A stretch of 64,000 nucleotides of DNA from Megasphaera stantonii (GTDB lineage: Bacteria; Bacillota; Negativicutes; Veillonellales; Megasphaeraceae), in contig NZ_CP029462.1 in the NCBI RefSeq assembly GCF_003367905.1, positions 682,001-746,000 on the forward strand, given 5' to 3'. This document shows positions 13,955 through 14,990 of this stretch, piece by piece. A program made the translations under genes and the position numbers. The notes under the pieces were generated by a model, which saw nothing but the letters and a program-made list of their open reading frames with translations, was not told where the DNA came from and searched no databases. Position 1 is the first letter of the stretch, and each line of letters starts with the position of its first letter.

Positions 13955-14290
13955 TATACAAAAAGAACGCATATATGTCGTATACGTCTACTGGTAACGG
14001 TCGCCGCACCTATCAGTCGGATCTGCACACATGAATACTTCTTCATGACATGTGCTGCTTACGCACGGACCCGACATAAGCGACTTACACTCGTTTACGT
14101 GTCGTGTCTATCTGTTTAGGGTATCTCCATCAGGGCTTCGAATCGGTAGCCTTTGCAACGTGGGCCTATCGCTCTTCTATCTCATGTGTCCCGATTTGAA
14201 GTAAGCGACTCACGCGCGTCGCTTCGCTCCTTCAAACGGTGTTTCCTGCTTATGTTTATCCCAGGAACCTGGAAGGATAGGAAGCCGCCA
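13955..14290. repeat. Tandem non-coding repeat, unit 1 (336 bp)
   Basis: Begins with TATACAAAAAGAACGCAT and is clearly homologous along its whole length to unit 2 (14291-14642), though diverged. Contents in forward order: a terminator-like segment; an imperfect hairpin closed by GTCGGATC/GACCCGAC; a short AAGCGAC-type element; an 11-nt arm pair (14136-14146 with 14191-14201, one G-U); the core element at 14201-14253; and a 21-nt segment (14268-14288) nearly identical to the 3' end of 5S rRNA but in the opposite orientation. Short ORFs here lack ribosome sites and show no family match. Confidence 0.85.
14201..14253. repeat. Core repeat element, copy 1 (partly deleted)
   Basis: Shares GTAAGCGACTCAC, GCGTCGCTT, GCTCCTTCAAACGG and CCTGCTTA with the other copies. 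The AAGCGAC/GTCGCTT stem (14203-14209 with 14218-14224) is intact, but the short block holding the CCGTTTG arm is missing. Confidence 0.75.
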
Positions 14291-14642
14291 TATACAAAAA
14301 AAGAACGCATACATGATGTATACGTCTCCTGCTAACGGTCGTCTCACCTATCAGTCGGGTCTGCACACAAGAATACTTCTTCATGACATGTGCTGCTCAC
14401 GCACGGACCCGACATAAGTGACTCACACTCGTTTGCGCGTCGCTGTCTATCTATCTAGTGTATCTCCATCAGGGCTTCGAATCGGCAGCCTTTGCCACAA
14501 TAGGCCTATCAGCCCTCTATCTCATGTGTCCCGATTCGAAGTAAGCGACTCACTACCGTTTGCGCGTCGCTGCGCTCCTTCAAACGGTGTTCCCTGCTTA
14601 TGCTTATCCCAGGGCAGGCCCTGGGTAGATAAGAGGTCGTTG
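14291..14642. repeat. Tandem non-coding repeat, unit 2 (352 bp)
   Basis: Second copy, starting TATACAAAAAAAGAACGCAT. Its first hairpin (14307-14323) plus the flanking T-run on the minus strand looks like an intrinsic terminator. It keeps the closed hairpin GTCGGGTC/GACCCGAC, a perfect 11-bp arm pair (14475-14485 with 14531-14541) and the core element (14541-14602). It ends with a degenerate 5S-3'-end-like segment that runs straight into the rrn terminator, where a third copy of the unit's first bases (TATACAAAAAGAG) is found. Confidence 0.85.
14541..14602. repeat. Core repeat element, copy 2
   Basis: Stem A: AGCGAC (14544-14549) with GTCGCT (14566-14571). Stem B: CCGTTTG (14556-14562) with CAAACGG (14581-14587). 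The stems interleave A-B-A'-B', so they form either an H-type pseudoknot or two exclusive hairpins. Confidence 0.75.
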
Positions 14643-14647
14643 TATAC

Positions 14648-14683
14648 AAAAAGAGAGCAGTGCCAATGCACTGCTCTCTTTTT
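14648..14683 (-). terminator. rRNA operon terminator
   Basis: Perfect 16-bp stem (14648-14663 with 14668-14683) with a 4-nt loop and a U-run, 5 nt after the 5S 3' end. It is symmetrical and should work in both directions. Confidence 0.9.
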
Positions 14684-14687
14684 GTAA

Positions 14688-14801
14688 TCAGCGGCTTCCT
14701 ATCCTCCCAGGGGGCCTCCCCCCAAGTACTTTCGGCGTTTGCGGGCTTAACTGCTGTGTTCGGCATGGGAACAGGTGGATCCCCGCAGCTATCGCCACTG
14801 A
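14688..14801 (-). rRNA. rrf: 5S ribosomal RNA
   Basis: About 114 nt. Contains the conserved CCGAACTCAG-type core as CCATGCCGAACACAG. The 5' TCAGTGGC pairs with the 3' GCCGCTGA, which sets the ends. Last rRNA of the operon. Confidence 0.93.
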
Positions 14802-14925
14802 ATTTTTCCTAAGGGCCCGTGCCCTTACAACTGCATAAAACGAACTTCCTTAACGAGCCTCCGCTCTGTTTACGGTTCCTTCCTCAGAACCTGCTTCCAG
14901 ATTCCCTCACCCACTCCCTTCGGGA

Positions 14926-14988
14926 GTAAGCGACTCGCTCCTGTTTGTGCGTCGCTTCTCAGCTCCTTCAAACAGGGCTCCCTGCTTA

Positions 14989-14990
<2 letters not shown>
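14926..14990. repeat. Core repeat element, copy 3, in the 23S-5S spacer
   Basis: Same orientation as the copies beyond the terminator. Stem A: AAGCGAC (14928-14934) with GTCGCTT (14951-14957). Stem B: CCTGTTTG (14940-14947) with CAAACAGG (14969-14976). Relative to copy 2 one stem-B pair has changed from C-G to T-A on both sides, which keeps pairing. Confidence 0.75.

Follow-up and report, generated by a model that had tools for sequence, protein, structure and literature searches.

The window, a 64,000-nt stretch of DNA (G000:C1:682001-746000), belongs to a genome composed of one contig of 2.65 Mb (G000, hereafter the own genome). It contains an rRNA operon on the minus strand, with the 16S gene at 19689-18125, the 23S gene at 17897-14987 and the 5S gene at 14802-14686 (Rfam RF00001, 93.3 bits). 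In the rRNA direction, the 5S gene is the upstream neighbour of a repeat array at 13955-14642, which begins just past the 5S terminator. The array is composed of two direct-repeat units of about 340 bp each, spaced by 338-352 bp and sharing 84% identity over 366 alignment columns, which agrees with the original prediction of two homologous yet diverged tandem units abutting the rRNA terminator. The 5S terminator (14646-14685, minus strand), adjoined by unit 2, is a perfect hairpin with a fold of -30.3 kcal/mol that is absent from the consensus terminator scan; the A-tract and T-tract flanking it make it bidirectional in form. The 5S 3' end, this terminator and the DNA beyond together form a palindrome with 45-nt arms (14619-14712). 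Downstream of the array, the next minus-strand gene is the ORF at 13768-12461, which probably starts at about 13718 and, by reading of its sequence, looks like an aminotransferase gene. The spacer between the 5S gene and this aminotransferase-like gene measures 971 bp, versus 168 bp in G001, where the same gene lies behind a plain terminator.

All elements of the array are oriented along the minus strand. In the rRNA direction, each unit consists of an inverted copy of the 5S 3' end, a hairpin termed A, a hairpin termed B, a linker, a truncated A retaining the 3' half, a hairpin termed E, a second linker and a terminator-like hairpin. In unit 2, the inverted 5S copy is decayed (14619-14645, inverted repeat I1, 82% complementary) and constitutes the outer arm of the palindrome around the 5S terminator. 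It is followed by a complete A with three helices and two tandem G.A loops (14542-14600), which gives a match of 87.7 bits (G000:C1:696540-696602) to R1, a covariance model of A. The B hairpin (14475-14541, centroid fold) comes next, its 11-bp stem CTTCGAATCGG/CCGATTCGAAG having arms at 14531-14541 and 14475-14485. The truncated A (14415-14442), which corresponds to the 3' half of the complete copy in L033/L034, precedes the E hairpin (14354-14413), whose stem GTCGGGTC/GACCCGAC has arms at 14406-14413 and 14354-14361. Both stems described in the original prediction could thus be located. The unit ends in an intrinsic-terminator-like hairpin with a T-run (14295-14326; terminator scan and a fold of -11.6).

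Unit 1 repeats this order. A second inverted copy of the 5S 3' end, GGCGGCTTCCTATCCTTCCAGG, is found at 14268-14289 (inverted repeat I2), followed by an A that has lost part of the right arm of helix P1 (14202-14252; R1 match of 51.3 bits, G000:C1:696200-696254), a B with one stem change (14136-14201), a truncated A (14077-14104), an E with one G-U change in the rRNA sense (14016-14075) and a weak terminator-like hairpin (13959-13988, fold of -6.1) missed by the terminator scan. Since B and E each follow an A, the best description of a unit is a pair of A-plus-hairpin modules closed by a terminator. In addition, a further complete A is located outside the units, in the 23S-5S spacer (14925-14990; 83.6 bits, G000:C1:696925-696990), starting at the 3' end of the 23S gene, which is annotated to 14987.

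When whole units are folded, unit 2 surpasses its shuffles on the minus strand (z of -4.4, none of 100 shuffles as good) and does so less strongly on the plus strand (z of -2.4, equalled by 1 of 100). For unit 1, no clear advantage over shuffles is seen on either strand (z of -1.56 on the minus strand with 3 of 100 as good; -1.59 on the plus strand with 10 of 100). The unit 1 change in the E stem gives a G-U pair on the minus strand and that in the B stem gives one on the plus strand, so that the original prediction described the sense strand fairly in leaving it undecided. The terminator-like hairpins and the G.A motifs are both on the minus strand, the sense of the rRNA. A G+C-rich stem followed by a T-run is present at 14326-14304 on the minus strand according to the scan, and at the 5S terminator according to folding; the former is the sole terminator-like site of the scan (1 found versus 0.8 expected).

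As originally noted, the units contain no recognizable gene or RNA family. No transposase ORF lies over either unit, and the three ORFs of 60-89 aa that overlap them in a mechanical ORF list are read as chance. Rfam (release 15) has no family over the units at the gathering score. Its eight matches in the window (rRNA, tRNA, tmRNA, glmS and L20 leader) are all away from the units, while those over the units with an E-value up to 5, all under their cut-offs, come mainly from microRNA and sRNA models hitting the terminator palindrome. Likewise, no Rfam family was found at the gathering score over the A copies in L067-L070, L152, L158 and L170. An independent small-RNA gene was considered and provisionally set aside: the promoter scan gave one site, on the plus strand (versus 2.0 expected), and none on the minus strand. 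A plasmid or phage origin was likewise rejected, blastn giving no match for the units in plasmid and phage collections.

The A element is a conserved three-helix hairpin of about 59 nt, often followed by a second hairpin in the copies that were read. Its fold was derived from 21 copies aligned with MAFFT without structure (alignment A1). The outer helix P0 (TAAGY/RCTTA) is separated by a 5x5 internal loop with tandem G.A from helix P1, which has ten pairs and one bulge; a second loop with tandem G.A leads to a short helix at the tip. By eye, the apical loop agrees with GNA or GNRA in 16 of the 21 copies. Both tandem G.A motifs are invariant in A1 (21/21), and 98.4% of its cells pair in the nested structure. 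The covariation score of 0.393 compares with 0.114 for shuffled alignments and at most 0.057 when the structure is slid. A pseudoknot in which P1 is interleaved with AAGCGAC/GTCGCTT was rejected, as TAAGT pairs with ACTTA in copies where GTCGC changes.

R1 was trained on these 21 copies, which were hand-chosen from regex matches, omitting a deletion copy, versions of the same copy with a longer 5' end and one near-identical variant; its E-values are rough, coming from a shortened calibration. A larger alignment, A2 (103 matches, 87 of them distinct), scored 0.550 against a shuffled mean of 0.139 and at most 0.126 when slid, with 328 two-sided and 13 one-sided changes among its cells, pair counts that lean toward the structure because its sequences were aligned by fitting to the model and taken from 59 chosen loci (E <= 1e-6). 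In A2, the tandem G.A is kept in 85-86 of 87 sequences at loop 2 and in 65-70 at loop 1. At loop 1, it is replaced by Watson-Crick pairs (G-C/C-G) in 11-14 of 87, which supports pairing at those positions.

G-U pairs are scarce in A, amounting to 26 of 1479 standard pairs (1.8%), versus 105 of 736 (14.3%) in 26 distinct 5S sequences, a rough control that represents one RNA only and differs from A in more than its G-U content. With the Rfam structure, 148 of 884 cells of this control are unpaired, and it shows 17 one-sided and 47 two-sided changes. Few G-U pairs would be expected of a fold that is important at the DNA level or on both strands. The scarcity speaks against a constraint on RNA only, and the covariation of A looks like that of folding at the level of DNA. 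The original prediction of an RNA or DNA structure kept by selection is partly supported: the core hairpin covaries across the class, far beyond the two units.

Searches with R1 place A far beyond this locus. The own genome contains 14 matches (E <= 0.01), all rRNA-sense and all in its six rRNA operons or their tails, with no match at this threshold elsewhere in the genome. Five of them are in 23S-5S spacers (78-84 bits). Intervening sequences of rRNA are insertions inside a mature rRNA gene that processing removes; none of the 14 matches lies inside a 16S or 23S gene, and one copy in another record (L069) lies inside an apparent partial duplicate 5S gene. Related arrays are present behind five of the six operons according to DNA search and sequence reading, the composition differing at each; at the sixth (5S at 673880), two tRNA-like genes were read in place of an array. 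Other operons (L035) and G012 (L055) also have an inverted 5S tail behind the terminator. Each closely resembles the 5S sequence of its own locus, and the tails give the appearance of having been copied through a template switch at the terminator. Past the 5S terminator, G010 and G011 have repeats of another hairpin (GACGGATGCC-GAA-GGCGAC...), the core of which is of a comparable G.A type (L048 and L061).

Within the genus, A occurs in 10 of 15 genomes, the own genome included (E <= 0.01), and the other five give no match. It is present in at least 41 of 61 genomes of the order (E <= 0.001), at least 89 of 300 of the class (E <= 1e-6) and at least 8 of 398 in a phylum sample (E <= 1e-6), comprising 6 of 14 genomes of the same class or nearer and 2 of 384 others. 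Presence and copy numbers in these three scans are lower bounds, since those of more than 40 genomes used stricter filters and scored few candidates per genome (87 for the order, 17 for the class, 13 for the phylum). The two matches outside the class keep P0, the first loop and P1, with a much shortened tip, and may on these retained parts be true distant relatives. Further examples came from a pattern scan, in Selenomonadales, Selenomonadaceae and Veillonellaceae records (L067-L070). The most copy-rich genomes of the order are G022, with 60 matches at E <= 0.001 (47 below 1e-10), and G020 with 32. The intergenic regions of G022 (L098-L122, L148, L149) also hold several palindromic repeat families besides A, some of them mutually nested. 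The search in related genomes proposed with the original prediction thus recovered the A hairpin throughout the class with strong covariation; the structured element it described stands, but it is a dispersed one with filled and empty sites (see below) and is not confined to this rRNA tail.

This distribution bears on a reading in which nothing is mobile and the units arose by recombination from the 23S-5S spacer and 5S tail of the rRNA operon itself, with unequal exchange copying them among operons. It would account for the restriction of all own-genome matches to rRNA operons and tails, for the same hairpin in the 23S-5S spacer and for the inverted 5S tails. The same hairpin, however, occurs in tRNA clusters, in protein-gene spacers and at some 60 places in G022, and its precise inserts in unrelated repeats of that genome weaken the reading further, so that we regard it as improbable. 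Recombination or unequal exchange could nevertheless be the source of the tandem duplication itself.

The genomic positions of A were analysed in 80 matches (E <= 1e-6) from 40 hand-picked stretches of 22 genomes. They comprise 35 of the 42 matches of a first set (the seven with an E-value above 1e-6, five of them near 5S genes, were dropped) and all 45 of a second; five matches in L067-L070 were left out. Fifty-four of the 80 lie within 400 nt of an rRNA or tRNA gene, 24 of these coming from G133. For the remaining 26, no stable RNA was detected within 400 nt, and 7 of the 26 adjoin long N runs or a contig end, which makes 54 a lower bound. Copies associated with rRNA are in the sense orientation in 25 of 27 cases, and those associated with tRNA in 19 of 27, the other 8 being antisense. 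Particularly, 26 copies are within 8 nt of a stable RNA, and 24 of them are sense at its annotated 3' end. The distance is 0 nt, meaning contact or an overlap of a few bases, for all eight at 23S ends and for nine of ten at tRNA ends, with 7 nt for the tenth, and it is 6 nt for all six at 16S ends. In the tRNA clusters of G133 and G154, A begins directly after the encoded CCA, giving the junction CCA-TAAGC.

Other positions are also occupied. A was found in a 16S leader (G004, L131), in a 16S-23S spacer (G014, L135), inside an apparent partial duplicate 5S gene (L069), in tRNA clusters, between protein genes, and antisense beside tRNA-Val clusters in G004, G017 and G022. Two copies lie between the members of a peptide-plus-enzyme gene pair (L070 3679-3836, the same as L163), which by eye looks like a gene for a short cysteine-rich peptide and one for a radical-SAM-type enzyme. 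Relative to protein genes, orientation in G022 is mixed according to rough ORF calls, with no replication-strand preference by GC skew (17/30). The antisense copies behind tRNA-Val in L150 (5998-6090 and 6575-6666) and L145 (6086-6174 and 7213-7299) are each followed by a tRNA-Val-like 3' fragment ending in the acceptor stem, then a terminator-like hairpin, an arrangement common to two genomes of one genus.

The main rival to a mobile repeat takes A as a functional RNA element, a hairpin that determines or safeguards how precursors of 23S, 16S and tRNA are processed at the 3' end, or that influences transcription through them, and that was recruited repeatedly. Such a role fits the sense bias and the exact junctions: of the copies adjoining a stable RNA, nearly all lie at the 3' end in the sense orientation, and all 14 of the own genome are rRNA-sense. 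The preservation of both tandem G.A motifs counts in the same direction, since such motifs are what a folded single strand would be expected to contain. Against it stand the relatives without A at the same sites, the five genus members without a match, the 26 of 80 copies without a stable RNA detected nearby (7 of them beside N runs or a contig end), the eight antisense copies beside tRNA genes and the rarity of G-U pairs. On balance, we consider a processing role possible but rather unlikely.

Comparison of filled and empty sites favours mobility. In G022, a first host palindrome contains a 70-bp segment with the A core inside at four of the seven places examined and is empty at the other three. 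In a second host palindrome of the same genome, the loop measures 74-75 nt with A (eight places) versus 3-4 nt without (seven places). In the orthologous spacer between tRNA-Asn and tRNA-Met, A lies directly after CCA in G133 and G093 and is absent from six other genomes that were read, and from G160 judging by coordinates alone. One of the six, G106, has an unrelated stretch after the tRNA-Asn spacer hairpin that replaces the next tRNA gene (L178 from about 1325). The array locus itself gives a further such pair, the 971-bp spacer here having a counterpart of 168 bp in G001. Moreover, copies in G133 and G154 are chained or nested, a new copy starting inside a truncated older one. Filled and empty sites of the kind used to recognize short interspersed mobile repeats (BOX, RUP or MITE) are thus present for A. 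TA is found at both ends of 20 of the 21 A1 copies, where it is also part of helix P0, and the G022 sites show no clean target-site duplication. Filled and empty sites can also arise by loss, and the host repeats of G022 were possibly amplified after one insertion each, in which case that genome may represent only two independent events.

We found no carrier enzyme for A in a transposase search that covered the PF01797 family. Y1 transposases of this family are present in 4 of the 14 genomes searched (G000, G008, G048 and G059), three of which, all except G008, also carry A. A REP/BIME-type repeat moved by a RAYT or an IS200-like tyrosine transposase would likewise be a short hairpin with mismatched loops, intergenic and nested, and the Y1 matches in G059, G048 and the own genome (one strong, one below the family cut-off) would suit it. 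The copy-rich G022 and G020 have no Y1 match, however, while G008, of the same genus as the own genome, has 14 Y1 matches and no R1 match. By eye, no conserved GTAG tag stands beside the hairpin in the 87 distinct aligned copies, and GTAG appears in the apical loop of some. This type of mobilization is therefore very improbable for A.

Our data are probably best explained by the units being a local array of a small non-autonomous hairpin repeat, A, which is dispersed in the class, mostly in the spacers of rRNA and tRNA operons, and often located at the 3' end of a stable RNA. The best reading of the A family is that it is new but of REP/BOX-like kind, and not RAYT-linked as far as the 14 genomes and PF01797 go. 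The hairpin is distributed class-wide, covaries, has both filled and empty sites, is nested in other repeats and lies at stable-RNA 3' ends. Recognition as a known mobile repeat was named with the original prediction as a refutation; A approaches this in spirit, since it is dispersed and its sites are filled in some places and empty in others, although the repeat is not one already known. The near-complete sense orientation of rRNA-associated copies (and of 14/14 in the own genome) speaks against the mobile reading in that it goes beyond what a purely neutral element would need.

The few G-U pairs and the tolerance of both orientations outside rRNA operons suggest that A moves as DNA folded into a single-strand hairpin, the mobilizing enzyme presumably being supplied in trans. 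At RNA 3' ends, a sense copy would be tolerated because a self-contained hairpin leaves the preceding RNA intact. A more specific variant, which we consider doubtful, is that A is a minimal geneless mobile hairpin inserting specifically at stable-RNA 3' ends (tRNA CCA, 23S, 16S) across the class, its target perhaps being chosen through the RNA 3' end, by RNA joining and then copying into DNA, and not through the DNA sequence. The unit of about 340 bp may have formed when A-B and A-E modules were joined to a terminator and an inverted 5S tail behind one 5S gene, and would then have been duplicated; template switching at the terminator hairpin is suggested by the inverted 5S tails found around terminators, and a tandem duplication at a later stage by the 84% identity of the units. 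The sole immediate effect here is likely that predicted back-up terminators separate the rRNA operon from the gene downstream, the greater part of the array probably being tolerated, not needed. Our analysis provides R1 as a searchable model for a class-wide repeat outside the Rfam families and the literature searched. A occupies highly transcribed operons, where insertions are expected to hurt. If mobile, it is a new kind of rRNA/tRNA-operon passenger; if functional, it adds a new element to the maturation of stable RNAs.

A is undescribed in the literature searched, and a text search with its core letters returned no paper. The relevant passages of PMC3733652, PMC8040213 and PMC8632094 hold no description of it. 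Those of PMC8632094 describe other motifs from Veillonellales/Negativicutes, together with unnamed and selfish-repeat candidates, which might include A. Like A, the CGTC-tagged repeats are palindromic; in the portions of PMC3733652 dealing with them, they are apparently without a dedicated transposase, have tails mostly fitting CCA, and are listed for five phyla, none being the phylum of A, and five class and genus names have no mention in that text. The tag of those repeats stands at one end of a simple stem, whereas related letters are internal in A. REP/REPIN palindromes, with their RAYTs (PMC3116915, PMC2817692), are short interspersed intergenic hairpins in mosaic clusters. A shares these traits, but it is longer, with three helices and two G.A loops, and is often found at stable-RNA 3' ends. 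It further differs from RAYT-linked REPs in that the two most copy-rich genomes tested have no Y1 transposase.

BOX, RUP and ERIC-type repeats are modular, non-coding, hairpin-forming and geneless, and were described for other genera. A resembles them in all of these properties, while differing in being class-wide and common in rRNA and tRNA spacers. The rrnB T1-T2 region has tandem rRNA-operon terminators, forming successive hairpins after the 5S gene. The array also places successive terminator hairpins after 5S, but the DNA separating them here is made up of repeats whose homologues occur at a great distance from rRNA operons.
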